IMG/VR virus record: IMGVR_UViG_3300042114_000006
Location: 1 to 23,870 of that record
Strand: one strand, 5' to 3'
Length of the DNA stretch: 23,870 nucleotides
Origin: a virus
This document shows, one piece after another, positions 3,173 through 23,211 of the stretch (positions within the stretch are counted from its first letter, which is position 1; each line of letters begins with the position of its first letter). Position numbers and translations under genes: made by a program. Under the pieces are notes generated by a model. That model saw nothing but the letters and a program-made list of their open reading frames with translations. It ran no database searches and was not told the DNA's origin.

Positions 3173-3181
3173 GGAGGGTAA

Positions 3182-3778: not shown

Positions 3779-3784
3779 ATTCTG

Positions 3785-3793: not shown

Positions 3794-3858
3794 TCTGCAA
3801 GCACTAAAAACTGATGTGGGTAAAAGCTGAATCTTGTAAATAATTGAAAGGGTCCTTT

Positions 3859-4170
3859 ATGATTAAAGACAAACCGAATACCAACTTACGTGAAAATGCA
3901 GAACTAACTGCTGGATTGTATGATGCTTATGAGCGTCTAAGTAAAAATGCTGACTTCAAGCATCTGATTGAGTATGGTTTTATGGAGCTGTATTCGTTAA
4001 ACCAAGTGAGTATGCTGGCTTCACCTGGTGTAGATAGAGCTGGAATCTATTCTGATCTACATGGTGTGAGTGTGCTGCAAAACTTTTTACTCATTATTGA
4101 GAGACTTGGAGAAGGTGCTCATGAGGCATTGAGAGCAGAGGCAGAATCTGTGATAGATTCAGAAGAGTAA
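3859..4170 (+). CDS. Small conserved phage protein next to scaffold
   Basis: A 103-residue, mostly helical protein of unknown function. An upstream TTG at 3844 could extend it by five residues, but the ATG at 3859 has a GAAAGGG site six bases away and is preferred. The pattern of an ALxxAYERLSKNADFKHLIEYGF-type first helix pair, then a stretch rich in Leu/Met/Ala, matches small podovirus proteins found beside scaffold genes (N4 gp58 position). It sits between an extended -10 promoter and the scaffold gene, three bases before the latter. An assembly role is inferred from position only. Confidence 0.6.
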   Translation: MIKDKPNTNLRENAELTAGLYDAYERLSKNADFKHLIEYGFMELYSLNQVSMLASPGVDRAGIYSDLHGVSVLQNFLLIIERLGEGAHEALRAEAESVIDSEE

Positions 4171-4173
4171 ACC

Positions 4174-5235: not shown

Positions 5236-5241
5236 ATGAAT

Positions 5242-5249
5242 AAAAGGAG
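5242..5249 (+). promoter_or_regulatory. Strong ribosome binding site of capsid gene
   Basis: AAAAGGAG ends six bases before the capsid ATG. It is among the best-matched and best-spaced sites in the window, consistent with the capsid protein being the most abundant product. Confidence 0.7.
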
Positions 5250-5255
5250 CTAATA

Positions 5256-6500: not shown

Positions 6501-6503
6501 GGT

Positions 6504-6539
6504 GTCCCTTCGGGGGCTGATCTGAGGGTCTAGGCCCTC
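6504..6539 (+). terminator. Tandem GC-rich hairpins after capsid gene
   Basis: Two hairpins follow the capsid stop codon by four bases. The first (6504-6517) is GTCCC-TTCG-GGGGC, a five-pair stem closing a very stable UUCG tetraloop. The second (6524-6539) is GAGGG/CCCTC with a CTAG-containing loop. The DNA after them (TATATAAATC) has no clear run of T, so full rho-independent termination is uncertain. Partial termination or 3' stabilisation of capsid mRNA fits equally well and would raise capsid expression over downstream genes. Confidence 0.65.
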
Positions 6540-6569
6540 TATATAAATCAATAGTTTTAAGGATATAAA

Positions 6570-7064
6570 ATGGATATTAGAGAAGACTTGAAGGCAAAGC
6601 TAACATCTCTCGGAATTGAGTTTAAAGAAAATGCGCCAACATCTAAGTTGGAAGAACTGGTAGCTAAGGCTGAAGAAGAGCCAGTAGTTGAGGAACGTGT
6701 CAATGTGAGGGTAGTAGTACCTGCAGATGACAAACGTACTAAGAGAGCTAAAGTAATCAGTGCTGCGAGAAAACGTAGTCTATGTATCGTGTACAATAAT
6801 GACAAGCGTAACTCAGAAGATACTGAGTGTTTCTCAAGTGTACGGAATAGTTTCTTCGGTGATGCTAAAGTAATTCCTATTGGTATAGAGTGGTGGATTC
6901 CACAGATGCATATAGATAATCTTAAAAGTGTTGAGTATATCAACTTTGTGAAAGACAAAGAAGGCAATGCTACAGCTAAGTCTGCTAAGAAGTATACAGT
7001 AGATGTACTAGATACAGATGAAGAAGAGTACAAACGTAAACTAGAGAAAAAGAATAAAGCATAA
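6570..7064 (+). CDS. HeH/SAP-like domain protein after capsid (gp55 position)
   Basis: A 164-residue protein with an N-terminal helix-extended-loop-helix look (LKAKLTSLGIEFKENAPT, then KLEELVAKAEE; residues 7-36), as seen in small nucleic-acid or assembly-associated HeH/LEM-type phage domains. A short acidic/valine linker leads to a basic middle (DDKRTKRAKVISAARKR) and a compact C-terminal domain containing IGIEWWIPQMHIDNL. The end is lysine/glutamate rich. It occupies the slot after the capsid gene, as gp55 does in N4. The site TTAAGGATATAAA supplies a ribosome binding site. The function is unknown; a head completion or connector role is only inferred. Confidence 0.6.
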   Translation: MDIREDLKAKLTSLGIEFKENAPTSKLEELVAKAEEEPVVEERVNVRVVVPADDKRTKRAKVISAARKRSLCIVYNNDKRNSEDTECFSSVRNSFFGDAKVIPIGIEWWIPQMHIDNLKSVEYINFVKDKEGNATAKSAKKYTVDVLDTDEEEYKRKLEKKNKA

Positions 7065-7070
7065 CGTATA

Positions 7071-7094
7071 CAGAGTCTATCTAGATAGATTCTG
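7071..7094 (+). repeat. 24-base near-perfect palindrome abutting a promoter
   Basis: CAGAGTCTATCT followed by its near-exact inverse (AGATAGATTCTG) forms two 12-base arms with a single G-T wobble position and no spacer. The right arm ends in the TG of the extended -10 element at 7093-7101. It could be a transcription-factor operator covering the -35 to -14 region or the 3' structure of the upstream transcript. The absence of a T-run makes a classic terminator less likely. Confidence 0.65.
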
Positions 7095-7101
7095 ATATAA
7101 T
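7093..7101 (+). promoter_or_regulatory. Extended -10 promoter ahead of tail-tube-like gene
   Basis: TGATATAAT, identical to the element at 3785, lies about 20 bases before the start of the gp54-like gene. The -35 position is occupied by the palindrome rather than a TTGACA-like box. The first transcript base would fall close to the ribosome binding site AAAAAGGA, giving a very short leader. Confidence 0.55.
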
Positions 7102-7119
7102 CTAGTAAAAAGGATAATT

Positions 7120-7698
7120 ATGGCAGATATATTATTTAGTGACATAACTACAGGGGATACAGCTGGTAATGGGTGCTTTGATGTACTGATGAGAAGTGTA
7201 AAAGCACATATACAACTAGAATACGATGCTAATAGATTGAAAGGCACTGACTACGCTACTGTATACCTAGGTGCCATGCAGTCGGCTATGCAATTAGCTG
7301 AACAGTTTATATTGACTGAAAAATTACAAGAAGCTCAGATAAACAAAATACAAGAAGAAGTGGATTTACTGCAAACTCAGGATAGTGAAGTACAACTTAA
7401 TGGTACTGCTGATAGACTTATAAAGGCGCAACAAGTGCTAAATGAGGCAGATAAAAGGCTGTCTACTGATAAAGCTAGGGCTGTTCAAGAGTCTCAACGC
7501 AGACTGTATGAAAGACAGATACATGGATTTGATGATAATAAGAAGATAAAAGCGTTCGAATCACAATTAAACGCATGGGCACTGATGTTTAGTTCTGGTG
7601 TATCTGATGTACTAACTCCTGCAGGTGTAATAACTGACGTTAATTTAACGGCTTCTTATAATGCACTTACTTTTGATTTTGATGAAAACTCACTATGA
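7120..7698 (+). CDS. Tail-tube-like protein (N4 gp54-like)
   Basis: A 192-residue, mostly helical virion protein. The N-terminal pattern FDVLMRSVKAHIQLEYDANR, then LKGTDYATVYLGAMQSAM (residues 20-57), followed by a long helix rich in Gln/Glu (60-135) and a HGFDDNKKIKAFESQLNAWAL segment, matches a recalled podovirus family that includes N4 gp54, reported as the tail-tube component. It has a strong ribosome binding site and its own promoter candidate. Its stop overlaps the next start (ATGA). The family is reasonably clear; the tube role is inferred from N4. Confidence 0.7.
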   Translation: MADILFSDITTGDTAGNGCFDVLMRSVKAHIQLEYDANRLKGTDYATVYLGAMQSAMQLAEQFILTEKLQEAQINKIQEEVDLLQTQDSEVQLNGTADRLIKAQQVLNEADKRLSTDKARAVQESQRRLYERQIHGFDDNKKIKAFESQLNAWALMFSSGVSDVLTPAGVITDVNLTASYNALTFDFDENSL

Positions 7699-8102
7699 TT
7701 CGAGTGATGACTGATGATGATATAGATACCATACTTCCTTACCTATATGAAGAGTATAGTAATGTACTCTCTGGAAAAGCTATAGTGATGACATTAAAGT
7801 ATGTATTGAAACTATCTAAACATAGGTATGTAGTACTAACTGATAATGGTGAACTCGTAGGGTACTATGCGTATGCTCAACGTACCCCAAGCACTGTAGA
7901 ACTATCATCTGTGTTTGTAATCCCAAAGTGGCGTACTAGTAAGTACTTACTAGAGCTTGCTGTGCATGTATCAGAAGAGTTAGTAAAGTACCCTTTAGTA
8001 AAATGTATAGCTGCATATAGTAATCAAATAATGCCTAGTCAGTATTACAATAAGCATAGAAAGATATTTGATGTAAAGAAACTGTTTAAAAAGGTACACT
8101 AA
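7695..8102 (+). CDS. GNAT-fold protein, internal-virion-protein candidate
   Basis: A 135-residue protein with the layout of a GCN5-related acetyltransferase: a first helix-loop pair (DDDIDTILPYLYEEYS), a YVVLTDNGELVGYYAYA beta-hairpin (about 50-66), a VELSSVFVIPKWRTSKYLLELAV strand-turn-helix (73-95) where the acetyl-CoA loop normally lies, and a late strand-helix containing KCIAAYSNQIMPSQYY. The usual Q/RxxGxG/A loop is degenerate (KWRTSKY), so catalysis is doubtful. T7 gp13, an internal virion assembly protein of nearly the same length, also has a degenerate GNAT fold. The position among virion genes supports a structural or assembly role. Confidence 0.6.
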   Translation: MIRVMTDDDIDTILPYLYEEYSNVLSGKAIVMTLKYVLKLSKHRYVVLTDNGELVGYYAYAQRTPSTVELSSVFVIPKWRTSKYLLELAVHVSEELVKYPLVKCIAAYSNQIMPSQYYNKHRKIFDVKKLFKKVH

Positions 8103-10948
8103 TGGGGGGTAGAAGCAGAACGTATACTGATCTACAAGTCATACCTGTAATGGATGAATATAGAGACTTAGATAAAGTGCTTGCTTCCTATGATGCACAA
8201 CAAATAAGTAATGGTATGAGGGCTGTGCTTGAGGCTAAAAAACGCACTATGCTAAAGATGAGATCCACTTTTAATCCTGCATTAATGGATAAGTGGGGAT
8301 TTCTACCAGCATCTACTGCTACTATGAAAAGAGTAGATAGAGATTTACTGTTAGACTACCTTCAGATAAATGTTGATGCGAATATAGATTCATTGTCTGA
8401 TGTAAGTATGGGGTTTATGTCTGCTGAAGAACTAGGTCATCAGTATTTACAGGATACATATAGCGAGTATACTGTCAATTCTCGTACATTTTCGTACTCT
8501 GATGGATATATATATAAGTATGTAACCTCTCAAAATGTAGGAGGTATGCTACAACTAACTACGTATAAACTTCCTACAGAGGCCGTTCTTCTCCCTCTAC
8601 TATCTGCATATGATACAGTCACAATAGACACGTTTAGTGAATACCTCGTATACATAGATCCTGATGGGTATATGGTAGAGGTAGGTATAACATACAAGCT
8701 CTATCAAGTAACTATCGTGAAAGATGCTGATGGGATAATTACTACAACTATATATGAGACTACTATTATAGGTAACGTAGTTGAAGGAGTTGTAGTTGAG
8801 GGTACCACTACGACTACTACTACAATAGTAACCTCACAAGTAGTGGGTACAGTATATGTAGCTCCTGAATACCTATACATAGGTACTACTGATAAGTATG
8901 ATACCTTTATTGAAAATATGATAAGTACGTATTCAGGTACCTATAGTACATCTATAGCTGGATGGACCACTTCAGGTACGTATAATAAAGTGTATGGTAT
9001 TCTAACTCCCCCCCCCACCTATTATGATGATAGTGCGTACCTTATCACTATTAATTACAGCTATACTAGTACTGTTACAATAGTCGATTCTACTACTTTA
9101 AATGTAGACGTTGTAGTCACCGCCTCTAGCCATCCTGAGACTAATAGTCTAGTAGAAGCCTATGAAAAAACTAGAATAGATACTCTAATGCAAGCAGCTG
9201 CTAAAGCTGAGTTTAGTAACTTAGTTGTATACTACACGTTGGTAGGTAATACATACATATACTACGTAGAGCCTGCTATAGCGTCTGGTTTCTTAGTGGA
9301 TGTTGAGCTTCCAACTATGCCTATATTCTCATTAAAAGTAGGGGGAGTACTAACAGATAATCCTAAAATGCAAATAGCACTACGCACTATGGGTATGACT
9401 GGACGAGAGTTCGATGAAAGTCTTACTAATGGTGCTTTAAAGTATGCATCACTAGGGTTTATGTTTGATCCTAATCAAGATAACCCACTAACTACTAAGT
9501 TAATGTTTGAGACGTTCTACCATTTATCTTCACAAGTAATGGAAGAAAGTGCAAAGACTACTGCGTCAACTGCTGGGTTTGTGATGTCATATGAAAGCCT
9601 ATCCATAGAAGTTAAATCTACTCATATTATTGGTTATGTTATAGGTACTGTAGGCACTATAGGTAAATATACTAGTGAAATATCTACATATATGGTAGAA
9701 GAACAAGTAGCTGATATAGAAGGGGGGTTTAGTAGTCAAACTGTCACTAAAGTAAGACGTATATACCGTAAGCAAGTAGAGACAAATGTCTATATAGAGC
9801 TGAATATCTCTAGTTTAACTGTAACGCATACCTATAGCGGTACATCCAGTACGTCATTTAAGTCGACAAATGGTAATTATATGGATCTAGGGAGAATACC
9901 TTTATTACGAGAGGTGTTGAGAAAACTACCATTCAATGAGTATCTAGAAACATTACAGATGTCTATGGCGCTGTTTGTGTACTCTTCTGTAACTGTAGAG
10001 TATAAGTGGTACCAAAGTGGGTTATTTCAGTTTGTAATGTTAGCTGTAGCTATTGGAGCTGCAGTATACACTGGTATGCAATCTATTAACGCTTGGTCTG
10101 CGGTATTTGCTGGTACTGCTACTGTAACAACTACATTAGTGTTAGGTACAGTGGCTACCATCGGAGCTATAGCTGGAGCTATATTAGCTGTAGCTGCTTT
10201 CATAGGCGTAGATTTAGGTACATTTGGGGATGCATTAAAAGTAATAGCTATCATAGGTGCAGTCGCTGCTGTAAGTAACTTAACTATAACCATGATGAAT
10301 ACTCCAGCTAGTACAGCAGGAGTAGGGGCAGCCACTCTTAATGGTGCCTCCACAGAACTTAGTGCTACAGCTAATACACTAATAGAGCAAGGAAGTCTAA
10401 ATTTAGGTACAAAATTTCAAGCATTAGCCTCTGAGATGTATGAGTTATCCTCGCAGTTCAGTATAACTAGTATGGGGAGCCTAGGTATAGGGGAGGCGCT
10501 ATCTCCAGTTATGAGTACGGTAGAAAGTAACTTAGCCAATATATTGACTACAAGTAATATACCAAGCGTTGCTATTCCTACTGTATCTACTTCTATGGCG
10601 GATGTACTAATGGCTACATTTGAGGAGTATGGTGTAACACCTGTGCTAAAGGTAGTAGATAAGGTAGGGGATATAGTATCTCAGATAAAAAGTATGCAAG
10701 ATCAAAGAGAGCTAAATGATATGGCTGAGGATCTTAAAAAGATGCAGGATATGAGAGATTTAGCGCAAGCTGAACTGGATGCACTGAGAGAGACTCAAGG
10801 GAGAGCACTGATGTTGGCCCCTGTATCTATAGATACTATGTATGATAGACTGTGTCAGATGCCAGATCCTATGCTAGGAATGACTGACATGCATGCATCC
10901 TTAACTGTAGGTGTAGAAACTACTATGGAGCAGATGATATGGGTATAG
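8102..10948 (+). CDS. Large membrane-segment virion/ejection protein (gp52 position)
   Basis: A 948-residue protein I do not recognise beyond its context. Residues 1-140 are helical and start with MGGRSRTYTDLQV. Residues 140-370 are beta- and Thr/Tyr/Val-rich, including a run of threonines near 234-240. Residues about 641-735 form a hydrophobic block (GLFQFVMLAVAIGAAVYTGM, then TLVLGTVATIGAIAGAILAV and further Ala/Ile-rich stretches), enough for three to four membrane helices. Residues 858-905 are a charged coiled coil. Such a protein in the virion module of a short-tailed phage could be ejected to form part of a channel across the cell envelope, as T7 internal proteins do. The role is inferred. 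It contains a C9 tract and is coupled upstream through TAATG. Confidence 0.6.
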   Translation: MGGRSRTYTDLQVIPVMDEYRDLDKVLASYDAQQISNGMRAVLEAKKRTMLKMRSTFNPALMDKWGFLPASTATMKRVDRDLLLDYLQINVDANIDSLSDVSMGFMSAEELGHQYLQDTYSEYTVNSRTFSYSDGYIYKYVTSQNVGGMLQLTTYKLPTEAVLLPLLSAYDTVTIDTFSEYLVYIDPDGYMVEVGITYKLYQVTIVKDADGIITTTIYETTIIGNVVEGVVVEGTTTTTTTIVTSQVVGTVYVAPEYLYIGTTDKYDTFIENMISTYSGTYSTSIAGWTTSGTYNKVYGILTPPPTYYDDSAYLITINYSYTSTVTIVDSTTLNVDVVVTASSHPETNSLVEAYEKTRIDTLMQAAAKAEFSNLVVYYTLVGNTYIYYVEPAIASGFLVDVELPTMPIFSLKVGGVLTDNPKMQIALRTMGMTGREFDESLTNGALKYASLGFMFDPNQDNPLTTKLMFETFYHLSSQVMEESAKTTASTAGFVMSYESLSIEVKSTHIIGYVIGTVGTIGKYTSEISTYMVEEQVADIEGGFSSQTVTKVRRIYRKQVETNVYIELNISSLTVTHTYSGTSSTSFKSTNGNYMDLGRIPLLREVLRKLPFNEYLETLQMSMALFVYSSVTVEYKWYQSGLFQFVMLAVAIGAAVYTGMQSINAWSAVFAGTATVTTTLVLGTVATIGAIAGAILAVAAFIGVDLGTFGDALKVIAIIGAVAAVSNLTITMMNTPASTAGVGAATLNGASTELSATANTLIEQGSLNLGTKFQALASEMYELSSQFSITSMGSLGIGEALSPVMSTVESNLANILTTSNIPSVAIPTVSTSMADVLMATFEEYGVTPVLKVVDKVGDIVSQIKSMQDQRELNDMAEDLKKMQDMRDLAQAELDALRETQGRALMLAPVSIDTMYDRLCQMPDPMLGMTDMHASLTVGVETTMEQMIWV
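9008..9016 (+). repeat. Nine-C homopolymer within coding sequence
   Basis: A run of nine C in an AT-rich gene encodes three prolines (codons 303-305, TPPPTYY). G/C homopolymers of this length are typical slippage sites, and a one-base change would truncate the 948-residue protein early. The same gene also has two G6 runs (8104-8109 and 9722-9727). Confidence 0.8.
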
Positions 10949-11003: not shown

Positions 11004-11381
11004 ATGAGTTACTTAGATAATCAAATGTCATCAGAGTCGGATTTACTATTTGGAGTAGGTAGATATAGCACTCCTGTAGAAACTCCTAAAACAAATACAC
11101 CTTGGTCTTTAGACTCATTAGGTAATACTGTTGGCGGTATGATAGGTACCGATGCTAAAGGCCTGCAAGGGCTTGGTAGTGCTATAGGGTATGGTGCAGG
11201 TATTGGTAATACATTATATGGCATGTACAACCAAGGGCAGATGGTAGATCTAGCTAAGGATAAGTATAACTTCGAGAAAGGCATAGCATCTGAACAATGG
11301 AAATTGGCAAAAGAAGACAGAGCCTCTGCACTAGCTGATAAGAAAAGAGTAGCAGATGCATACCTAGGTAGAACATCATGA
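11004..11381 (+). CDS. Small internal virion protein candidate
   Basis: A 125-residue protein with a polar N-terminus, a glycine-rich middle (GNTVGGMIGTDAKGLQGLGS, then AIGYGAGIGNTLYGMYNQGQ; about 43-83), and a charged C-terminal helix (MVDLAKDKYNFEKGIASEQW onwards). The combination of a glycine-rich, membrane-friendly patch and a helix beginning MYNQGQMVDLAKDKY is one I recall from small proteins encoded next to the internal or ejection proteins of podoviruses. It has a GGAGAG ribosome binding site and overlaps the next gene by four bases (ATGA). No catalytic motif is visible. The role is inferred from context. Confidence 0.5.
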   Translation: MSYLDNQMSSESDLLFGVGRYSTPVETPKTNTPWSLDSLGNTVGGMIGTDAKGLQGLGSAIGYGAGIGNTLYGMYNQGQMVDLAKDKYNFEKGIASEQWKLAKEDRASALADKKRVADAYLGRTS

Positions 11382-12712
11382 GTATGCCATGGGAACAAAG
11401 TAGGATAGCTATTGGAAGTATCCGTCCTAATGTTTCTAGTGCTGGTGATAGTCTACTTCAGGTGATGGCTAACAATACTAAACCATTGGATGTATACCTA
11501 GAACGTACTAAACTTGAAGCTCAAACAGAGAAAGATAGACAGGATAGACTAGCACAACAAGATATAGCTAATAAAAGAGCGGATGCTGGACTACTAATGC
11601 AACAGGAAGAAGCACAGCAAAAAAAGGATGCTATACTTCAATCTAAAGGTACAGATAGAGCACTCAAAGAGTACAGTATGGGCATGAATGATGCTACTTC
11701 TGACTTCGGTGCTAGTATAGGTGATGTATACAATGCTAATGTAGCTAAGATGGGTTCAGAGGCAGCAGCTAAACAAGCTGAACAGGACATAAAAAATGCT
11801 GAAATAGCGTTTGTCAAGTCTCCTGAGCTACAGCAAGCACAGCTGCTAAGAACTCAGATGCCTACTGGATATGAGTATAACTCTGCTCCACTACTAGCTA
11901 CTCGACAACAACGTAGTACAGATATAGAAAACATGAGAGAGACCCTAGCTCAAGAACAATATAGGAAAGATACACTTACTGAAAGTAAACGTGCCCGTGA
12001 AGTAGCTCAAGCTAATGCTGATAGAGCGTATAATTATACTGTAAATAAAGATATTACTAACACTAAGCTATTCAAAGATATGGCTGGAGTAACTAAAACT
12101 AAAACTGCAGGTGAGATAAATGGTAACAAAGCAGTGGAAACCTTCTTTAGAAATATAGAGAGTAAAACTCCTAAAGACCAGGCAGCTATGGATCCTAAGC
12201 TAGTGGTTAGAGGGTATGAAAACGCACTATCCAAAGATCGAGAAGTAGTAGCTAACCCTAGGTATGAGGAAGAAATACAACAAATCCTAGCCAATAGCGG
12301 GGCTGATATACCTACTAGAAGTATACTCTCTCAAATGATATATAAAAGTAAAGGTAAAAAGGAAGATACACCTGAAAGTATAGAAGCTGCTGCATATGCT
12401 AAAACTCTCGGTGTGGAGAAAGCTAAGAAAGAGGTAGGGTATGGTAAAGAGGATGGTAAATTGCTGACAAGTATGCTAGCGTCAGAGATAAAACCTATAT
12501 TAGCATCTGATGATAACGTAGAAGACTCCTTACGTAAGGTGATCTCAGCCAAACCTGAGATAGAGACATACGCTAAAACTCACGGTATGTCTAACAGAGA
12601 GGTTGTAGACTTACTCAAAGTAAAAATAGCAGGAGCTAGAAGTGCATTACCGAGTATATATGATACAGATGCAGAAGACGCTCTTGATGAGCTTTTAGGA
12701 ACTAACCACTAA
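11378..12712 (+). CDS. Helical internal virion protein candidate (gp51 position)
   Basis: A 444-residue, almost entirely helical protein rich in Gln, Lys, Ala and Glu. Residues about 45-90 and 110-220 look like long coiled coils (runs such as TEKDRQDRLAQQDIANKRAD). The C-terminal third (residues 300-444) is more globular. There is no membrane segment or enzyme motif. It lies directly upstream of the vRNAP genes, where N4 encodes gp51 and gp52, proteins packaged in the capsid alongside vRNAP. It is coupled to the upstream gene by an ATGA overlap. I infer an internal or ejected protein; no family is recognised from sequence. Confidence 0.5.
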   Translation: MSMPWEQSRIAIGSIRPNVSSAGDSLLQVMANNTKPLDVYLERTKLEAQTEKDRQDRLAQQDIANKRADAGLLMQQEEAQQKKDAILQSKGTDRALKEYSMGMNDATSDFGASIGDVYNANVAKMGSEAAAKQAEQDIKNAEIAFVKSPELQQAQLLRTQMPTGYEYNSAPLLATRQQRSTDIENMRETLAQEQYRKDTLTESKRAREVAQANADRAYNYTVNKDITNTKLFKDMAGVTKTKTAGEINGNKAVETFFRNIESKTPKDQAAMDPKLVVRGYENALSKDREVVANPRYEEEIQQILANSGADIPTRSILSQMIYKSKGKKEDTPESIEAAAYAKTLGVEKAKKEVGYGKEDGKLLTSMLASEIKPILASDDNVEDSLRKVISAKPEIETYAKTHGMSNREVVDLLKVKIAGARSALPSIYDTDAEDALDELLGTNH

Positions 12713-12730: not shown

Positions 12731-12760
12731 ACCATACGCTAGAGGAATCTAGTGTATGGT
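12731..12760 (+). repeat. 12-base-arm hairpin covering the vRNAP promoter
   Basis: ACCATACGCTAG (12731-12742) and CTAGTGTATGGT (12749-12760) are inverse arms with one wobble position and a six-base loop, AGGAAT. The right arm runs into the extended -10 element at 12757-12765, so the dyad covers the -41 to -12 region. It is the longest stable inverted repeat in the plus-strand spacers. It may be an operator, or an RNA 3' end for the upstream gene, which stops 18 bases earlier; no T-run follows. Confidence 0.7.
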
Positions 12761-12796: not shown

Positions 12797-15700
12797 ATGA
12801 GTATAAATGATATATACGGTATAGATTACTCTAAACCACTCTACTCACAAATGTATGGAGTAGCCCCTACAAAAGCAGACCAAGAACAGATGATTCGTGA
12901 TGAGCGCCTACAACGACTTGAACAAGCTAAACTGGATAAACAAGCTAGGTTAGGGTTCAATGTTACAGAAAGCCTACAGCAAAACCTATCCAATGCTCTG
13001 GATGCTCAAATCTATAAAGAAGCAGACGGGTCACTCTATCAAATAGATTATATGCTAGATGATCAAGGTATGAGTCAAGGTACTAAAAAAGTACCATTTA
13101 TAGGTAAAACTAGAGACCTGTATATTGATAGTACTGCTGAAGGTAATATGAAACTAGGGTTAGCTAGAACTGATCAAGGTGGGTATACTGGTAGGTATGA
13201 TACTCTACTCCACCCTGAATGGGAGACTGCAAGTAATAATCAATTAGCTGGACCCAAAGGTGTAACCCCTAAAGACGGTGCCCTCATGAATATAACCCTC
13301 CCATACAACTATGCTACTCAATTTGAGTATGGTGTACATTCAGATGTAGATCAGATAAGAAACAGGGCTATGGGTGTAGGTCCGAAATCTGGTACATCTC
13401 AAGCTGAATATGGGAGTGGTCAGACTGAGTATACCACTCAAGATGCACCTATGTGGAATGCAGACTATATCAGAGGCGCTACTGGAAGCGATGTAGGAGT
13501 AAATACACCTATGCCAGAAACTCCAAAATTTACAAGTAGTCCTGATGTACCATACACCTCTGCTGTATATACCCCATCTGAAGGTCTGCAAATTCCAGAA
13601 GCTCTAGGCGCTGGTGCAGGTACACTACTGGGAAAAGGTGCTGAGTTATTAGGTGAAGGTATGGAACTAGGTGGCTCTATAATGGAGATGCCAGGTAAAG
13701 CTGTTGAATCCTTTGGAGAATGGCAAGAAAAGTATAATTTGAAACACCCCCCAAAGACTGGGGATAAAGTATCTGAAACTATTAGTAAGTGGCAATCAGC
13801 GTTTGCTGCAGGTGCCAAAGATCTAGGTAAATGGATGAATACAGACAATGTACTGGCCGATACTTTTAGAGAAGAAGGGGCTCAAATACAGCAAGAACAG
13901 AAAGACTTTAGGGATAAAAGTCAATGGAATGACTTAACTGGGTATGATCCTAAAGATGTACAGAGGTATGGAGAAGAGTTCGCAGATAGAGTAGAAAAAG
14001 GTAACTATGGAGATGCTATAGGTGGGCTATTTGATACTAGGGCTATCACAGCGTTTTCAAACTCCCTACCTGAAATGGTGGCTATGGCTAATCCATGGGG
14101 ACTAGGTACAGTAATGGCCAGCAATGTTAATAAAAACCTAAATGATCTATATGCTAATGCTGATAAAAAAGGAGAGGTTGTAACTAAAGGACAAGTGGCT
14201 GCATCTACTGGGTTAAGTATAGTAAGTACATACCTTGATAGACTTGGAGATAAAGCAGTACTCAGTGGTAATACAGTAACACTTGCAAAAATCATAGATA
14301 AAATGCCTGCAAGTGTCACAAATAAAGTAATGTCTGTATATGAAGTGCCACTAAAAGGTATAGGGATTAGTATGTCTGCTACTGGTAAAGTGGCTGTAGA
14401 AGGTATAACAGAAGGGGCACAGGAAATACTAGAAGGTAAGGCGCAAGATTCCAATCTGCAAAATCTAACCCTAACTGCAGAAGAGAAAAGAAAAGCCTTG
14501 GAAGCTACAGGGATAGGTCTGGGTGCAGGAGGTATTCCTGTGGCTGGAAGACAAGTACTCGACTCTGCAAAACTCCTTGATTCTACTATTTCTTTAATGG
14601 CTGCAGGCATAAAGGGTATTACAAACAGTGAATCTGAAGCCATTAGTGAGGAACCAGTAAAGCTTACTGAGGCTCAAGTTAAGAGTGCTGAAACTGTTGA
14701 TAAATTGAAGAAGTTTGTAGATACGGATGAGCCTAAAGGGTATGTAGCCGTACTTAAAAAACTAGATTTGTTAGATATGGGTGAAGATACTGAGATAGAA
14801 GCTCAAAAGTTACGTCAAACAATCGCTGATAAGCTGTCACAAACTGATGTGCCTATTAGGCTGGAAGAGTTACGCTTAGGTAGTAGTGAAGAAGCTGAGG
14901 CATTTATAGAAGAGATGTTTGTAAATGCTACAGATAGGGATAGTACATCTTTGATGGATAACCTACTGAAAGTTGGAGAAAAGTTTGATATTGGCTCTGA
15001 AACAGTTAAACTTATAAAAGATAGTGCAACTGTAGAGTTTGAAGCTACTGCTGGAAAGAAAGGGTATGAGACTTATGACAGAGCTTTAAAAAGATTAAGT
15101 GCAGACCCAGAAGGAAATAGTAAAACTATATCTCAAATAGAGGATCAACTAGAGCATTTTGAGAACACGCAAATAGATAGGTTAGATAGGTTTGAAAAGA
15201 AAGTATCTACTATTGAAGCTAACTTAAAAAGTGGTATTCAAAAAAACGGAAAAGAGAGAGTGTCGTATGCTGGCGGAGGTGGGTTCGATATCTACGTTAA
15301 AGATGGTAAGATAATCCCTGCTACCTATGATACCATCAAAGCAATTAAACGCAACGTGGAAGGGATCGGTAAGGTTATAGATAAGTATGGCATTCAACGT
15401 GCTGAATCTACTGTTGTAGATCCTTACTCACCTATAGGGAAGTTTAGAGTAGATAAGAAGGTTACACCTAAAAATAGGTTGGGATTTTTAAGTAAGTTAG
15501 AGTCTAAAATAAAGAAGGGTGAAACTATCTTTATGGATATAGCAAGTAAGCGTACTAAAACAGAGCATATTACTGCTAACAAGTTAGCCAAGAATGGGTA
15601 TGTAGAAGTAGATGTTGTTGGACACCCACAACCAAAATCAGGCAGATGGGTAAGTAAGATTAATATAAAAGTAGATGAGACTAAAGTTGAAGCAAAGAGA

Positions 15701-18700
15701 CAGAAGCTAGAAAAGAAAACAGAAAGTATGGAAGTTACTAAAGTAGTTACTAGATTACAACGTAAAGAATTACTTACTCTTGAAGAGGAGGCGTTTAAAG
15801 CAGAACATGAAGCTCAGATAAAACAGGAACTACAACAAGTAGATGTCATTGCTAAAATACAGCAGATAGATAATAATATTGATGTATACACAGAAGAGCT
15901 GAAAGAATTAGAAAAGGACGCAGAGAGTAATGGTACAGAGATATTAAAGCTTTCTAATAGGGTAGAAGAGTTAGAGGCACAAAAAGAAAAGATAATTAGT
16001 AAAGACATAACACGAGACCTGTTAGGAAATAGTGTAAGTAATATAGTAAAAGAAGCAGGTAAAGGATATGCAGGTGCTAAGTTTGCTCAACCTACAGAAA
16101 TTAGTAAGTATGTAAAGCTTAGTAATAGCGTATCCAGTTTATTAGGTAGTGTACATGTAAAATATTTCAACAGTGCTGTAGTACAGGATGCTCGACTTTT
16201 AACAACTAAACTGTTAAAAAAGATACTAGCTCCGATAGATAATGAGGTAACAAAGTATAAAGTACCTAAAGAGTTATTACAGTTAATGTCATCCCCTTCT
16301 AGAGGACTTATATTTGATACTGAAGGTAGTATAAATGAGAATGTAGCTGTAGCTATAGATGTTGCACTTACTGAGTATATGGCTATGGGTGCGTATAATT
16401 TAGGTAGTAAAAATAAAGAACAGATAGCAGCTATGACAGGTAAACAAGAGTTTGATGTTGATAAGGATATGATTAAGTTCTTTAAAGACTTAGGTATGTA
16501 CTCTAAGAATGCTGTAGATGATATAGGTAAGACCGTATTACGATCTTTAGGTTTATCTATGAATGAGAATATACCCCAAGATCTGTACGCTAAACTTGTA
16601 GCAGATCTTGGAAATGTGGCACTACATGTAGGTATAGAGAATGGAGACTTAGAGTTTATTGATGTCAAAGCTGCGAAGCATAACAAGTTTTTAGGTTACA
16701 TAATAGATGAAAAGACGGTAGAGACTACTATTCCATTTATTAGGTTTACAGCTAAAGGTAAGGCTGATATGCCTATACATAAAGCTATGTTTGCTGAGTT
16801 TAAGAAAGCGTTTAAAGTGGAAGATACATTTAGAAAAGGACCTCATTCTAAACCTATCAAAACCAAAGATAGAAGTATTAGAAATAACCCTATTACAGAG
16901 CAATCAGATACTGCTGCAAAAGTAATGGACTTATTTAGACAAGATAGGTTTGTGAAAGAAGAAGGTGTATTTACATGGTTAGTAGATGATAAAAATAGAG
17001 ATATAGCATTACACCATCTAGGGTATATGACTGAAAAAGAGATGCAAGAGTTAAGCTATAATGCGAGAGACTCACAAGAAGCTAAGAATGAGGAGATAGT
17101 ACGTAGTTTAGATGCATTGAAAGAACTAGAAATGGATGAGATGTATTTTGATTGGTTCTATTCTAAAAATGGTCGTTATATGATGGATAGTAATACTGTA
17201 AACCCTCAAACAGACAAATTACACAGATTTACTATAGTTATGGAAGCACATAAATCAGAACTAGATGTAAACAATGTAGAACATATGGGACTATTTAGGT
17301 TTGCATTAGCACAAGCTTTTGGTATGAGCACTGATAAGAAGTCTAATATCAAGGTACAAGAGTTTGGAGAGCTACTATTAAAAAAAGACCCAAAAGAATT
17401 GATGCAGATGTTAGAGACTGGTAAGTTTACTGACGGTATTGAGGTAGAACATTTGGGTCATTACTTACAAGGTGTAGAAGCTTTAAAGGTGTATAGTGCA
17501 GCAAAAGATGGGAAGTTTGATACATTTTTAACGGTAGAGTCTGATGCAGTTACATCAGGATTTGGACTGAAACTATTACAATTTCCAATATTGAAAGATA
17601 AGGATGGTATTAAAAGTGTATTTGAAACTGTCAAAGGTTGGTTGGCTAAAACAGGTATGTTTGTAGATAAGACTGTTACATCTATGAATGATGAAATTAG
17701 TGCGATAGATGTTGTTACAGGTAAGAAAATGTTCTTTGATAGTTATGAGACATTGGCTAAAGCTGTACATCATGGTGAGGTTAAAGAAGAGAATTACCCT
17801 AAAAAAGAAGGCAAAGATTGGAATCCTTGGGATGGGGTTGTAAAGTATGATAGTAGCATACCTCATGAGATATTTGTGGCTGTGTTACCTACAGTAGATG
17901 GTGAAGGAGAGGTAGGTAAAGCATTACGTACACTATTTAAAGACCCATTTATGACATTCAACTATAGTAGAGGGATCGGTGCAATCAAGAAGAGCTTAGG
18001 AAGTATTATAGCAGATGGTCTAATAGATAAGTTTGTTGCTGGTAAAGACTTGTCAAAAGAAGAGAGTGCACTACTCTTAAAGCTAAAACTTACGTACGGA
18101 AAGAGTTTAATATCAGACTTAAAAAAGAAAGATCCTAGCACTATTACAGCTATAAGTCCAGGTATGCCAGATTTGTATAAATACTTAAATGATATGGGTG
18201 TAAGTACTTATGGTCATTTGGCAGCTAAATCATTAGAAGATAATTTTAGTGAGTTTGTTAAGGTAAACGACATAACTAATAAAGCATTCACTGAGATGTT
18301 TATGGCATATGAGACTGACTATTTAACTGTGGTAAATGAAATGCAGAATAGTAAGAGTAGAGGTATTACAAAGAAAGAAGACTTAGAGATAATCAAAAGC
18401 TTACGTGGTAAATTCCCACTTATAAAAGGACCATACTCTAAAGCTAAAGATCTAAGTGACACTATTGCAATTTATGATACAGTTAATGTAGACTCTAAAA
18501 CACTAGAAGAGAGCTATGGTACTGTGTCAACTAAGTTGGCAGGTGGTAAAGATAAGAAGGTACAAAGTAAGATACGTCAATTGAAGGCAGCTATTAAATC
18601 TGGTTCTGTTGTACCTATTCACTATTTAGATGGTGCTGCTATTGGAAATACTACATTAAACTTTAATGGTGGTATTTTAGGAATACATGATGCTATTATA

Positions 18701-19090
18701 GCAAATCTACTCAAAACAAAAGAGGTAGTTAGTAATTATAATAAGAACATAGTTGAGGTTAATAAAGAGTATAGCATAATAGAGGCTCTATTAGAGTCTT
18801 ATGCTAGAGTCTTCAAAGATGCTTCTACTAAGGAGTCAGAGAAAACACTAACAGAGTTAAAAGAAGTAACAGAGCTTATTACTAAGATGAGGAAAGAACT
18901 TTTTAGTCATGATATAGATGTAGTGCACATGAGTGCTATGCCTGGAAGTAAGTATGCCCATAAAGGTGAGAATACTAAAGTAGAAAGTACTTATAATGAT
19001 GCACAGAAAAAGGCTATCTTAGAGATACTAAATAAGCCAGTTATAAAGCAGTTACTATTACGCAATAATATACAATTAGAGGAGTGTTAA
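12797..19090 (+). CDS. N4-like virion RNA polymerase, N-terminal domain plus catalytic core
   Basis: A 2097-residue protein, probably packaged in the virion and ejected to transcribe early genes. An alternative start at 12752 is rejected because ATG 12797 has AAAAGG six bases upstream. Residues 1-960 form the N-terminal part, with glycine-rich amphipathic segments (262-300), a VEGITEGAQEI motif near 532 that I recall from ejection proteins, and unknown globular regions. A coiled coil spans about 963-1070. The polymerase core follows, with T7/N4-type motifs: DWFYSKNGR (1452-1460; Arg1460 of the T/DxxGR motif), VESDAVTSG (motif A, Asp1583), RTLFKDPFMTFNY (motif B, Arg1711, Lys1715, Tyr1723, with the same R-4-K-8-Y spacing as T7 and N4) and GIHDAI (motif C, Asp1965), preceded by IHYLDGA. 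The protein ends 132 residues after motif C, where N4's mini-vRNAP also ends, lacking the C-terminal domain. Confidence 0.9.
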   Translation: MSINDIYGIDYSKPLYSQMYGVAPTKADQEQMIRDERLQRLEQAKLDKQARLGFNVTESLQQNLSNALDAQIYKEADGSLYQIDYMLDDQGMSQGTKKVPFIGKTRDLYIDSTAEGNMKLGLARTDQGGYTGRYDTLLHPEWETASNNQLAGPKGVTPKDGALMNITLPYNYATQFEYGVHSDVDQIRNRAMGVGPKSGTSQAEYGSGQTEYTTQDAPMWNADYIRGATGSDVGVNTPMPETPKFTSSPDVPYTSAVYTPSEGLQIPEALGAGAGTLLGKGAELLGEGMELGGSIMEMPGKAVESFGEWQEKYNLKHPPKTGDKVSETISKWQSAFAAGAKDLGKWMNTDNVLADTFREEGAQIQQEQKDFRDKSQWNDLTGYDPKDVQRYGEEFADRVEKGNYGDAIGGLFDTRAITAFSNSLPEMVAMANPWGLGTVMASNVNKNLNDLYANADKKGEVVTKGQVAASTGLSIVSTYLDRLGDKAVLSGNTVTLAKIIDKMPASVTNKVMSVYEVPLKGIGISMSATGKVAVEGITEGAQEILEGKAQDSNLQNLTLTAEEKRKALEATGIGLGAGGIPVAGRQVLDSAKLLDSTISLMAAGIKGITNSESEAISEEPVKLTEAQVKSAETVDKLKKFVDTDEPKGYVAVLKKLDLLDMGEDTEIEAQKLRQTIADKLSQTDVPIRLEELRLGSSEEAEAFIEEMFVNATDRDSTSLMDNLLKVGEKFDIGSETVKLIKDSATVEFEATAGKKGYETYDRALKRLSADPEGNSKTISQIEDQLEHFENTQIDRLDRFEKKVSTIEANLKSGIQKNGKERVSYAGGGGFDIYVKDGKIIPATYDTIKAIKRNVEGIGKVIDKYGIQRAESTVVDPYSPIGKFRVDKKVTPKNRLGFLSKLESKIKKGETIFMDIASKRTKTEHITANKLAKNGYVEVDVVGHPQPKSGRWVSKINIKVDETKVEAKRQKLEKKTESMEVTKVVTRLQRKELLTLEEEAFKAEHEAQIKQELQQVDVIAKIQQIDNNIDVYTEELKELEKDAESNGTEILKLSNRVEELEAQKEKIISKDITRDLLGNSVSNIVKEAGKGYAGAKFAQPTEISKYVKLSNSVSSLLGSVHVKYFNSAVVQDARLLTTKLLKKILAPIDNEVTKYKVPKELLQLMSSPSRGLIFDTEGSINENVAVAIDVALTEYMAMGAYNLGSKNKEQIAAMTGKQEFDVDKDMIKFFKDLGMYSKNAVDDIGKTVLRSLGLSMNENIPQDLYAKLVADLGNVALHVGIENGDLEFIDVKAAKHNKFLGYIIDEKTVETTIPFIRFTAKGKADMPIHKAMFAEFKKAFKVEDTFRKGPHSKPIKTKDRSIRNNPITEQSDTAAKVMDLFRQDRFVKEEGVFTWLVDDKNRDIALHHLGYMTEKEMQELSYNARDSQEAKNEEIVRSLDALKELEMDEMYFDWFYSKNGRYMMDSNTVNPQTDKLHRFTIVMEAHKSELDVNNVEHMGLFRFALAQAFGMSTDKKSNIKVQEFGELLLKKDPKELMQMLETGKFTDGIEVEHLGHYLQGVEALKVYSAAKDGKFDTFLTVESDAVTSGFGLKLLQFPILKDKDGIKSVFETVKGWLAKTGMFVDKTVTSMNDEISAIDVVTGKKMFFDSYETLAKAVHHGEVKEENYPKKEGKDWNPWDGVVKYDSSIPHEIFVAVLPTVDGEGEVGKALRTLFKDPFMTFNYSRGIGAIKKSLGSIIADGLIDKFVAGKDLSKEESALLLKLKLTYGKSLISDLKKKDPSTITAISPGMPDLYKYLNDMGVSTYGHLAAKSLEDNFSEFVKVNDITNKAFTEMFMAYETDYLTVVNEMQNSKSRGITKKEDLEIIKSLRGKFPLIKGPYSKAKDLSDTIAIYDTVNVDSKTLEESYGTVSTKLAGGKDKKVQSKIRQLKAAIKSGSVVPIHYLDGAAIGNTTLNFNGGILGIHDAIIANLLKTKEVVSNYNKNIVEVNKEYSIIEALLESYARVFKDASTKESEKTLTELKEVTELITKMRKELFSHDIDVVHMSAMPGSKYAHKGENTKVESTYNDAQKKAILEILNKPVIKQLLLRNNIQLEEC

Positions 19091-22000
19091 TGAGTTGTCA
19101 AATACCTCAAGCTATTGAGTTAGTGAAAGAAAGAAGTACAAACGCATACAGACAAATTCAAGAGGCTATAGAAAAACATGCTGAAGCCAAATCAGATATA
19201 GTACCTCTTGCAGTAGAGGTGGAAGACACTATGCCTGGTTATAGATTATACTCTATAGATGATGAAGCATCCAAAGCCGTAACTAGAGAGAATGATGATG
19301 GTACATTACTTTTAGATCAAGTAGAGACTGATACTGGAGCTAGAAAGAAAGGATACTCCAGACAAGTTATAAATAAAGTAATAGAAGACTATGGGGATAA
19401 AATTATAACTTTAAGTGCAGAACCTAAAGCTGGTATCTCTATGAAGGATTTGGTTAAATACTATGAATCCTTTGGGTTTACTATAGATAGTAAAGTAGGT
19501 AAAGATGCTACTGCTATGACTCGTGTTCCTACTGAAACTACTTTAGGAAGTGATGGAAGTACAGTTTCGGATTCATATAATCAGGTACAAAGTAAGAAAT
19601 TTAAAGAAGAACTGGAAGATGTGTTAATATTTGAAGGATTGTATGTAAAATTTAGTAATAACCATGAAGAGACTGTAGATGTGTTGGGTATTAATGTAGT
19701 AAAGAAAGGTAAGGTTATAAATATCATTAGAACTAAGGGTGACATATTACAATTACATAATGAGGATGGAGTGTGGTCTACTAAAGATGGAGATGTAGCT
19801 CCAGACTTCGATGAGATATTCCATAAAACTCTACAACAAGTGCTAGGTAGTGACGAAGAGGCTACATATAATAAAAGAGAAGAAAATCTACGGAAGAATG
19901 CATTGGAAAGTGCTGATGGTATGAAGGCTATTATAGATGAATTGAACGATGCTGACGAAGGATATAAGAAATATGTAAAAGGTCTTATTGATATGATAGG
20001 TCCAGAGTTTATCAGGAATAAGAACCTATACTTGAATAAAGATGCACAACGAAATAGTGGGACTGTAGGTATAAATGGTATAGTTATAAATGTTGCGCCA
20101 AATATAGACTATAGTGATAAAACAGCTACAGAAGTATATGCACATGAATTAATGCACGCAATTACTAAATTTGCAATTGAAAGTAAAGATTTAGAAGTGC
20201 AAGCTATTGTTAGACAGCTAACTAAATTAAGAAATCAAGCTGCTAAAATATTCAGTTGGAAGGATTTTATGCCTACACAATCATTAGACAAGGCTGCAGA
20301 TAAAATCAAAGCTCAAGCTAGGTATGAATATATATTTGAAAATGCTAATAGTAGGCATGAATTTTTAGCTTATGGAATGACCAATAAAAAAGTAATGGGC
20401 AAACTCAAGGCAAACAAAACCACTGTTACACCAGATGAGGGTATGACATTATTTGATAAGCTTCAAGTATTTGTACAAAAACTACTTAATGTAACTTTGG
20501 GAAAAGTTAAATGGAGTAATATAGATAAAAATATGAAAGCTCAACTACATCAGCTCACATTTGAATTGATGGTGCATAATGGAAAGGCAATAAGAAGTAA
20601 TAATCGAAAGAACTCAAATTCAGCTTTACACGCTGTTGCTAAATCTATTAACATAGGAAATAAAAAAGTAGGTCAGTTATTTGATATGGTAACAGATGCT
20701 TTTGCAGGGGATCCTGATGCTAGAATAGGTATGCCGAACCCTAATGCAGAGGTACTTGAGAAAACTACTTATATGTTAAGGATGTTACCTAAACTTGCTG
20801 TTAGAGAAGATCTAAGAGGTATTAGAGAAGTAGTAATATCATCATTTGGGTTAAACCCAGAAGGGGTTATTCAAAACATTATGCGAGATGTACAAGGAAA
20901 CCCATCTTCATTAGAGCGGGATATTGAGCACTTAGCTATGGCTTCTGATGGTATTGATAGGGTGAGAGAGCTTACTGTTGTAGAAACTACTAAAGCTATC
21001 AGAGAGAAGTTTGACAAGCTTACTTCAGTGGAAGATGAAGCTATTACATTATCTTTGTTGGATACGGATGTTGGAGTATTAATAAAAGACTACTCTATAC
21101 GAGAGATTGGTGAACTTTTAAGTAGCCCAGAAGCACTTGAAAAGAGAATTGTGGAAGTTAAAAATGAACTTTATAAAATTGATAGTAAAAATTTCTTTTG
21201 GAATATAAATCAAGCTACAGGGTTAGGGTTTTATTTGGCTACTGGTAAAGCAGGTGTTGCTCAAAACCTAAATGCTTATAATATTGCATCTGGAATACTT
21301 ACAGCACATAGAAGAAAAGCTAGAAGAAATGTAGTTGAAAAAATAGATGAGTTAGCTACGCTTGTAGGGATGAAATATACCTCTCAAGACTCTAATGAAC
21401 TAGTGAGTGAGTTAATTACTAAAAATCCAGATGCTATAAAGTATGTATTGGAGTTAAACGAAGGTATTAAAAAAGATGCAAGAGAGCAAATCTTTGAGAC
21501 TGATGTTAATATTATAAAAGGATATAGTAAGGAGATATTTGATGATACTGTGGATGTAAGAATAAGACCATTATCAGAAAAAGCTACTATGGAGTACAAT
21601 GGGTTTGAGTTGGTAAAAGTGCTGGATGGGGGTACTGGAACTATGGCTTTATACAGATCAAAAATGTATGTTAACAGCAGTTATAATAGAGGTGCTAGTA
21701 GGATTACTAATATAGTGAAAAGAGGGACATCTCTAACTGATATCTCATTTACAGATGATTATAGTACATCTAAAAGAGCATTACAGAAAGAGATTAAAAG
21801 GATACGTTATGAGGCTTATGAAGAAGTAGCTAAAATGCAATCTGGGGAATATACTCCAGATACTGGCAATACCCTATCTCCAGTTCTTAATCAGGATGGT
21901 TTAGTTGTGGATTATAGGTATATGATGGGTAAAGCCAATAAGAAAGAGCTGTTAGGGCAGGATACTAAAGCTACTGTAGTAATGGGTAGAACATTAGGAA

Positions 22001-23211
22001 GCATTAGAGATAAAGTAGATACAGATATACAGAATAAGTTAGTATTAGAAGTTATACAAAAAGACATGAAAGCTAACTATGTAAAAGGGGCTACACTTGG
22101 CCGAAATAACCAACAGTACATCAAAATTGAAAATAATAGTCCGAATATTACGGTAAGTGAGATATATAAACTGTTACCAGAACATATGAAAGAAGCTATT
22201 AGAGATAGTGATGATGGCTTTATTGCGGTAAGAAGAGATATGCTGCATAACTACTTTGGGTTTAGGGATATGAGTATCCTAGATTTTAAGTTGATTCATG
22301 GAGTAACTCCTGATGTGTTACATAAATGGGTTAAGTATGCTGAGAAGATGTGGCAACAAATAGTAAGCATAAGTAAAGTGGATATAGTAATTAGAACCCC
22401 TGCAGTATTTATAGGAAATGTAATATCCAATTTTATGTATAGTGTAGTTAATGGGGCAAGTCCATTAAGAGTACTTAAAATGCAAGTTCGTAACATGCAA
22501 GCTATAAAAGATTACTTAGATGTACAAGCAGAGGTTGAAAGACTACGTATTGGAGGATTGGTCGGAAAAGATAATAGTAAAAGAATCAGTATGTTAGAAA
22601 GAGAGTTGAAAAGTAATGCTGTAGCTGATTTAATGGAAGCAGGGATGTATCAAGCTATTGTAGAAGATTTGAAAAAGCAAGATATAAAAAGCTCTAATAA
22701 AGTAGTGAGGAAGATAGAGGATGCAGCAGATAGCTTACCTGAGTATGTAAAGAATGGTGTTAATTGGTTATACCTAGGGAAAGGTACAGGGTTTTTTGAT
22801 TTTATGACTACTGCTACTCAGTATAGTGACTTTGTAGCTAGGGCTACTGAGTACCAATTACTTAGAGAGAGAGGTGTTAGTCAAAAAGTAGCTTTAGATA
22901 ATGTACTCGATGTATTTATTAACTATGGAAAGCCAGCAAGTAGCTTTGAAGAGTATTTGAATAATATGGGGTTATTTATGTTTACAAAGTATATGAAGAG
23001 AATCACCAGAGTAGTACATAAGTCTATTCGTGATAAGCCTCTTAATGTACTTTTAAGTGTGTTTGCACAAGAAGCGTTCTTTGAAGTTGATGACATACAA
23101 GACCAAAACATTCTTACTAGAAGTTTTAGCAATTTACATCAAGATATGTTTAAACATTTTGATAACGCAATAACACCTACTTCCTTACAATTCCTAGGAA
23201 TTCTTAAGTAG
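19090..23211 (+). CDS. Separate vRNAP C-terminal-domain protein with GNAT-like and zincin motifs
   Basis: A 1373-residue protein close in size to the N4 vRNAP C-terminal domain (about 1397 residues), which in N4 is needed to package the enzyme. A GTG at 19084 is possible, but ATG 19090 is preferred because AGAGGAG lies upstream and it forms TAATG with the previous stop. Residues 50-146 look like a GNAT fold: a LLLDQVETDTGARKKGYSRQ loop (73-92), an IITLSAE strand and a LVKYYESFGF helix. Residues 352-356 are HELMH, and E424 in SRHEFLAYGMTN is a plausible third zinc ligand, giving a gluzincin-type site. The last 150 residues (FFDFMTTATQYSDFVARATEY, near 1235, onward) match the helical C-terminal module I recall from giant phage virion polyproteins (LPD38-like). 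No polymerase motif is present, so it should act with the upstream gene product. Confidence 0.8.
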   Translation: MSCQIPQAIELVKERSTNAYRQIQEAIEKHAEAKSDIVPLAVEVEDTMPGYRLYSIDDEASKAVTRENDDGTLLLDQVETDTGARKKGYSRQVINKVIEDYGDKIITLSAEPKAGISMKDLVKYYESFGFTIDSKVGKDATAMTRVPTETTLGSDGSTVSDSYNQVQSKKFKEELEDVLIFEGLYVKFSNNHEETVDVLGINVVKKGKVINIIRTKGDILQLHNEDGVWSTKDGDVAPDFDEIFHKTLQQVLGSDEEATYNKREENLRKNALESADGMKAIIDELNDADEGYKKYVKGLIDMIGPEFIRNKNLYLNKDAQRNSGTVGINGIVINVAPNIDYSDKTATEVYAHELMHAITKFAIESKDLEVQAIVRQLTKLRNQAAKIFSWKDFMPTQSLDKAADKIKAQARYEYIFENANSRHEFLAYGMTNKKVMGKLKANKTTVTPDEGMTLFDKLQVFVQKLLNVTLGKVKWSNIDKNMKAQLHQLTFELMVHNGKAIRSNNRKNSNSALHAVAKSINIGNKKVGQLFDMVTDAFAGDPDARIGMPNPNAEVLEKTTYMLRMLPKLAVREDLRGIREVVISSFGLNPEGVIQNIMRDVQGNPSSLERDIEHLAMASDGIDRVRELTVVETTKAIREKFDKLTSVEDEAITLSLLDTDVGVLIKDYSIREIGELLSSPEALEKRIVEVKNELYKIDSKNFFWNINQATGLGFYLATGKAGVAQNLNAYNIASGILTAHRRKARRNVVEKIDELATLVGMKYTSQDSNELVSELITKNPDAIKYVLELNEGIKKDAREQIFETDVNIIKGYSKEIFDDTVDVRIRPLSEKATMEYNGFELVKVLDGGTGTMALYRSKMYVNSSYNRGASRITNIVKRGTSLTDISFTDDYSTSKRALQKEIKRIRYEAYEEVAKMQSGEYTPDTGNTLSPVLNQDGLVVDYRYMMGKANKKELLGQDTKATVVMGRTLGSIRDKVDTDIQNKLVLEVIQKDMKANYVKGATLGRNNQQYIKIENNSPNITVSEIYKLLPEHMKEAIRDSDDGFIAVRRDMLHNYFGFRDMSILDFKLIHGVTPDVLHKWVKYAEKMWQQIVSISKVDIVIRTPAVFIGNVISNFMYSVVNGASPLRVLKMQVRNMQAIKDYLDVQAEVERLRIGGLVGKDNSKRISMLERELKSNAVADLMEAGMYQAIVEDLKKQDIKSSNKVVRKIEDAADSLPEYVKNGVNWLYLGKGTGFFDFMTTATQYSDFVARATEYQLLRERGVSQKVALDNVLDVFINYGKPASSFEEYLNNMGLFMFTKYMKRITRVVHKSIRDKPLNVLLSVFAQEAFFEVDDIQDQNILTRSFSNLHQDMFKHFDNAITPTSLQFLGILK

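Follow-up and report, generated by a model that had tools for sequence, protein, structure and literature searches.

Paired cysteines at the cut ends of split N4-type virion RNA polymerases and a probable disulfide connector for injected polymerases

The closest described counterpart of the system considered here is gp50 of phage N4 (Schitoviridae; PDB 2PO4, 3C2P, 9PNQ, 9PNR), a virion RNA polymerase (vRNAP) comprising an N-terminal domain (NTD), an RNA polymerase (RNAP) domain and a C-terminal domain (CTD) with an HExxH-bearing C1 subdomain and a C2 subdomain. We analysed a 23,870-base virus record from IMG/VR (IMGVR_UViG_3300042114_000006, positions 1 to 23,870; this whole stretch is hereafter the window), a 23.9-kb fragment with an N4-like structural gene block on its + strand. 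Its vRNAP shares the domains and catalytic residues of gp50 and has a similar length (3470 versus 3500 residues), but whereas gp50 is a single chain with 0 cysteines in 3500 residues, the window codes for two chains with a cysteine at each cut end. We found this pairing of cysteines at every junction of the split relatives, and argue that it very probably marks an interchain disulfide. In the cryo-EM structure of gp50, a linker of ~100 residues joins the NTD to the RNAP domain and a disordered one of 23 residues (2102-2123) joins the latter to the CTD; each unit behaves as a body of its own, and transcription is repressed by the CTD (PMC12633501). The absence of cysteines from N4-like vRNAPs was already known and had been attributed to passage through the tail and periplasm (PMC2784036, PMC3715699, PMC3915230).

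Split forms exist among cultured phages. In Alteromonas phages AD45-P1 to P4 (KF005317-20), a vRNAP about 28-30% identical to that of the window is cut at the same place, with cysteines at C2493 of 2495 aa and C4 of 1409 aa. The GenBank annotation is silent on the split and the cysteines, and marks the two frames of AD45-P3 (2495 and 1409 aa) as a 'potential frameshift'. Alteromonas phages PT11-V19 (OP751378) and R22Y (PP212876) likewise make the vRNAP in two parts, each with one cysteine at its cut end, but are cut at the linker between the NTD and RNAP+CTD (1000+2082 and 1008+2083 aa, respectively); the R22Y paper names the 2,083-aa protein, the RNAP+CTD part alone, as the vRNAP (PMC11705849). 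Among the open-access PMC papers searched, none describes splits or terminal cysteines in vRNAPs; some remark that cysteine is lacking. In crAss-like phages (crAss001 gp47-gp50-gp49, phi14:2 g067-g066-g065), the RNAP cargo is also giant, virion-carried and multi-chain with cysteines at facing ends, but uses another RNA polymerase (phi14:2 g066 = PDB 6VR4). More distantly, the T7 gp14/gp15/gp16 ejectosome delivers several ejection proteins ahead of the DNA by way of a short tail (PMC12633501). It differs in having no RNAP among its proteins. We know of no disulfide chain in this system.

The two-protein vRNAP and its relatives

The features of the split vRNAP in the window are as follows:

12797..19090, + strand: part A, NTD and RNA polymerase of the split vRNAP, 2097 aa, ATG start
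19090..23211, + strand: part B, CTD of the split vRNAP, 1373 aa from ATG
16313..18976, + strand: T7-like RNA polymerase domain, approximate limits (residues ~1173-2060), from tblastn, profiles, the AlphaFold model and PDB matches
17174..17176, + strand: catalytic R1460 (N4 R1421), by alignment
17543..17545, + strand: catalytic D1583 of motif A (N4 D1556), by alignment
17939..17941, + strand: catalytic K1715 of motif B (N4 K1667), by alignment
17963..17965, + strand: catalytic Y1723 of motif B (N4 Y1675), by alignment
18689..18691, + strand: catalytic D1965 of motif C (N4 D1948), by alignment
19080..19084, + strand: AGGAG, Shine-Dalgarno sequence for part B, read from the sequence
19085..19087, + strand: Cys2097, final residue and sole cysteine of part A
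19096..19098, + strand: Cys3, sole cysteine of part B (start MSC)
20143..20157, + strand: HExxH (HELMH) of the zincin-like C1 subdomain, part B residue 352

Starts, here and in the relatives, were taken as the first plausible ATG; the open reading frame (ORF) program also offers an earlier GTG at 12752 for part A (+15 aa) and one at 19084 for part B (giving 1375 aa).

Alignment matched all five catalytic residues of N4 in part A (R1460, D1583, K1715, Y1723 and D1965). The PHROG virion RNA polymerase profile recovered both proteins, with part A covering profile positions 711-1905 (1.8e-70) and part B 2342-3392 (3e-168), and part B also matched residues 2722-3451 of N4 gp50 (E 2e-31). A profile of the polymerase region of part A matched the N4 mini-vRNAP structures at about 1e-222 (5e-222 to 2po4), and its AlphaFold model (mean pLDDT 80.5) matched 2PO4/9PNQ, with 784 residues aligned to N4 2PO4 at an rmsd (root-mean-square deviation) of 4.6 (VIA Z 30.4). 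This structural match stops near part A residue 2059, so that the last ~38 residues, including the cysteine, lie outside the matched fold. The final residue of part A aligns with N4 residue ~2095, and the cut sits at the flexible linker that joins RNAP and CTD in N4. The HExxH motif of C1 reads HELMH in part B versus HELVH in N4; in the AD45 C1 (L001 9059-13288, residue 280) EEVVH replaces it, and the zincin-like site is hence not conserved across all split CTDs.

The window codes for an N4-type vRNAP as two polypeptides, NTD+RNAP and CTD, and departs from the type in having chains of 2097 and 1373 aa in place of one of ~3,500 residues, and one cysteine per part, at the cut ends, in place of none. 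These results bear out much of a preliminary description of this locus, which had proposed an N4-type vRNAP in two proteins of 2097 and 1373 aa (sum 3470), the first ending 132 residues after the motif-C aspartate D1965, with the split at the N4 domain boundary; the profile check that it called for places part B on the gp50 CTD. It had also left room for a single continuous frame. The stop codon of part A runs into the start codon of part B in the overlap TAATG, and AGGAG precedes the part B ATG by five bases; no slippery heptamer was seen at this overlap. The independent contig L004/L006, 92% identical to the window, has the same break, with the same TAATG overlap and AGGAG upstream; the split is not a fault of this one record. 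In the relatives, most downstream parts are preceded by a Shine-Dalgarno-like sequence. Part B is a gene of its own.

Relatives were collected from IMG/VR scans and ORF analysis with two hidden Markov models built for the purpose, and most of the genomes are metagenomic contigs. Two kinds of cut were found. The first, between RNAP and CTD, occurs in the window, L004, AD45, L013, L014, L015, L017, L020 and L127, and also, with an extra middle protein between the parts (408, 776 and 661 aa), in L016, L018 and L123; by sequence, these middle proteins carry HExxH modules like C1, and their AlphaFold model, from an alignment of 3, had a pLDDT of 50 and was not used. The second, between the NTD and RNAP+CTD, occurs in V19, R22Y, L025, L026, L028, L083, L099, L100, L101, L125, L132, L133, L134, L135, L136 and L137. 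In L025, L026, L028, L083, L099, L100 and L101, the halves lie 1.8-7.2 kb apart with other genes between them; in L025 and L100 the remote NTD half matches the N-terminal part of the vRNAP profile. The RNAP and CTD halves of L127 lie 1.6 kb apart; this interval (5785-7412) contains no long + strand ORF, and is possibly an insertion or a lost middle protein. L020, otherwise a regular split vRNAP, has a frame break at 1107 in the polymerase motif-C region, either an error or a real stop.

A FastTree tree of 82 vRNAPs calls for 8 changes among three layouts, 5 of them for the NTD/RNAP cut (a count that excludes the 5'-cut contigs L027, L036, L074, L079, L081 and L082) and 3 for the RNAP/CTD cut, with some placements unsure on account of the long branches of L123, L127, L110 and N4. 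The tree thus indicates that the splits arose several times. The window groups with L004 and with L005, its nearest single-chain relative, all within a clade of RNAP/CTD splits. Given this nesting, L005 is probably a re-fusion, in which most of the linker and both cysteines would have been lost. The two-protein vRNAP of the preliminary description stands, but it makes no mention of the single cysteines at the cut ends, and two further points made there are not supported: that no N4-like phage with such a split had been described, as AD45-P1 to P4 share this cut and V19 and R22Y are split at the NTD-RNAP linker; and that the system is early-diverging, as the window lies within the split clade, splits have several origins and the single-chain L005 is nested among them. 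The window (12797-14596) and L004 (3780-5513) are dissimilar over the initial ~600 residues of part A, whereas the remainder is 92% identical, so that the NTD has been exchanged as a module by recombination.

Cysteines at the cut ends

Among complete single-chain vRNAPs, 34 of 36 lack cysteine altogether, and the set as a whole has 2 cysteines (L045, L115) in 126,208 residues; those of N4, PG11, PT15-A5 and L005 have none. The split vRNAPs comprise 28 genomes with 31 junctions, and hold 62 cysteines in 96,154 residues (a total in which some pieces stop at contig ends), every one of them at a cut end. At cut N-termini they occupy positions 3-10, at cut C-termini they lie 0-5 residues from the end, and no cysteine occurs elsewhere. 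All 31 junctions have one cysteine on each side. Conversely, the outer ends, namely the N-terminus of the first piece and the C-terminus of the last, have no cysteine in any split vRNAP. The middle proteins of L016, L018 and L123 have exactly two, one near each end; thus, pieces at the ends of the chain bear one connector cysteine and middle pieces two. The NTD/RNAP splits obey this rule even where the halves are 1.8-7.2 kb apart. For comparison, cysteine makes up 0.80% of the other ORFs of at least 300 aa in the same loci. At the level of sequence, the cut-end rule holds across the split genomes. Frame breaks inside domains in L029, L056, L097 and L106 have no matching terminal cysteines and were treated as errors.

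Two other sources of the terminal cysteines were considered. A by-product of the Shine-Dalgarno sequence at overlapping genes (GGAGTGTTAATG) was rejected, since distance between the halves does not abolish the cysteines, and the one on the N side lies 3-10 codons inside the second gene. A split intein was also set aside: part A stops right after its Cys, part B begins MSC, and there was no match to an intein-like family, though no dedicated search was made.

The same arrangement is seen in the RNAP cargo of crAss-like phages. In phi14:2, g067 ends in a cysteine (C1797 of 1797), the RNAP g066 has C3 and C2179 of 2180, and g065 has C3. Its crAss001 counterparts show C2339 of 2341 in gp47, C5 and C2404 of 2412 plus one internal cysteine in gp50, and C5 in gp49. 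The cut-end pattern recurs in DAC15, cr128_1 and cr111_1, and the two-piece forms of cr55_1, cr50_1, cr4_1, jaberico and crAss002 have fewer, longer proteins, with cysteines at the single junction that is left; assuming that crAss002 gp33 starts at the ATG found 32 codons inside its annotated gene, its cysteine lies in an initial MSC. In the Cellulophaga phage phi17:2, gp039 likewise has a last-residue cysteine, gp038 has C4 and C516 of 517, and gp036 has C3. For the crAss001 virion, six copies of each of its three RNAP-associated proteins are cited as an example (PMC10172136), which fits a 1:1:1 chain.

A proposed disulfide chain and competing explanations

A head-to-tail disulfide chain calls for paired cysteines of this polarity and for middle pieces with two connecting ends, all of which are seen here. 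We infer that the two halves are very probably joined by an interchain disulfide at the cut-end cysteines, as NTD-RNAP-S-S-CTD, and ejected as one thread. The preliminary description had remarked that a split would require the two proteins to find each other, and the terminal cysteines fit this need. The bond would form in the virion or on exposure of the proteins to oxidising conditions, whether in the periplasm or after lysis, and would hold the pieces at a 1:1 ratio and in NTD-RNAP-CTD order; the linked pieces might then pass the narrow tail successively. In the reducing cytoplasm, the bond would probably be opened and the pieces released, freeing the RNAP from the CTD, the repressor of transcription in N4, or, in the NTD/RNAP layout, from a membrane-bound NTD. 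A middle protein with a cysteine at both ends would lengthen the chain.

Several points weigh against a disulfide chain. No paper found reports an experiment showing such a bond, and with assembly in the reducing cytoplasm it must form late or with help. The N4-like genome papers had argued that the absence of cysteine avoids disulfides that would hinder ejection (PMC2784036, PMC3715699, PMC3915230). L054, broken close to the NTD-RNAP linker but lacking terminal cysteines, is a possible exception; we read it as a frameshift error, since its homology to the single-chain L115 continues upstream of the second start. Finally, several crAss-like RNAP subunits also have internal cysteines, so that the ends are not the sole candidates and the rule there is 'ends always', not 'ends only'.

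An unlikely alternative is that the halves bind non-covalently and that the terminal cysteines bind a metal ion, carry an acyl group or dock to a third virion protein. In N4, the RNAP-CTD interface is large but weak and does not need the linker (PMC12633501), and no disulfide has been observed. However, two cysteines alone make a poor metal site, and no conserved His or further Cys adjoins the cut-end cysteines in the termini inspected; a lipid or docking role leaves unexplained why cysteines are confined to cut ends, flank each cut on either side and come in twos on middle proteins. A quite improbable reading is that each piece forms homodimers or oligomers (A-A, B-B) rather than A-B links: a lone exposed cysteine can dimerise and the N4 virion holds ~4 vRNAP copies (PMC12633501), but this does not account for cysteines that are always in both halves, at facing ends, and gone in the re-fused L005.

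It is highly improbable that the split is unreal, with one chain made through a programmed frameshift or obscured by a sequencing error, as the AD45 annotation supposes. The overlap of the ORF ends in the window and the GenBank note speak for it; against it stand the ATG and AGGAG of part B itself, the overlap free of a slippery heptamer, the identical break in independent contigs, the parts lying kilobases apart in L127 and the seven NTD/RNAP genomes listed above, and an entire gene between the parts in L016, L018 and L123. For the group as a whole, this explanation is already refuted. Chance or drift, with cysteines tolerated near flexible termini that need not pass the tail folded, is scarcely credible, given that uncut termini, including all ends of single-chain vRNAPs, never have a cysteine whereas 31 of 31 junctions do, and that for eight lineage representatives, counting position alone, the value is about 1e-37.

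Locus context and significance

Upstream of the vRNAP, on the + strand, profile matches identify the portal (PHROG_1216), the major capsid protein (PHROG_1357), PHROG_2120 and PHROG_2050, in a block that also codes for other virion proteins; the vRNAP of the window thus adjoins N4-like portal, capsid and ejection genes, a trait of Schitoviridae. Two further features are:

11378..12712, + strand: gene directly upstream of part A, 444 aa, without cysteine
19168..19479, + strand: GNAT-like insert near the start of part B, from alignment and a weak Pfam match (0.04, below the cut-off)

From gene order, the 444-aa gene likely codes for an ejection protein. Just 5' of the vRNAP gene, at 12731-12758, lies a near-perfect 12-bp inverted repeat (CCATACGCTAGA/TCTAGTGTATGG) followed by TATAAT. 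The GNAT acetyltransferase-like insert, which could be cargo injected with the polymerase, is absent from the sister contig L006. Between its structural genes, L006 codes for an 869-aa protein with 19 cysteines (3385-5994), the start of which (CNIDCEYC) looks like a radical-SAM motif; the counterpart position in the window holds a 948-aa protein (8102-10948). Elsewhere, L116 (1355-13219) and L117 code for ~3,950-aa proteins with 15 cysteines that match the vRNAP C2 domain and not the RNAP core, perhaps another use of C2. A scan of genome contigs gave one marginal match, from which no host could be named.

With somewhat less confidence than for the bond itself, we favor the broader view that phages of at least two distant groups, N4-like and crAss-like, build their giant injected RNAPs as disulfide daisy chains, stapled in the oxidised virion to thread the tail as a single chain. 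The reducing host cytoplasm would unstaple them, thereby switching on transcription, and the terminal cysteines would be a portable connector with which domains were split, moved, inserted and re-fused many times. How a 380-kDa enzyme passes a tail channel of ~35 Å and becomes active is an open question for N4, and the cut-end cysteine gives a handle on it, as a bond there would be visible on a gel, breakable by mutation and timed by redox state. The connector idea also offers a reason why vRNAPs are otherwise cysteine-free. In practice, the cysteine rule helps to find missing pieces of injected complexes, even kilobases apart, and corrects annotations in which a half passes for the complete enzyme or the cut is put down to error. 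Should it hold for crAss-like phages too, its reach would include the viruses that are most abundant in the human gut.

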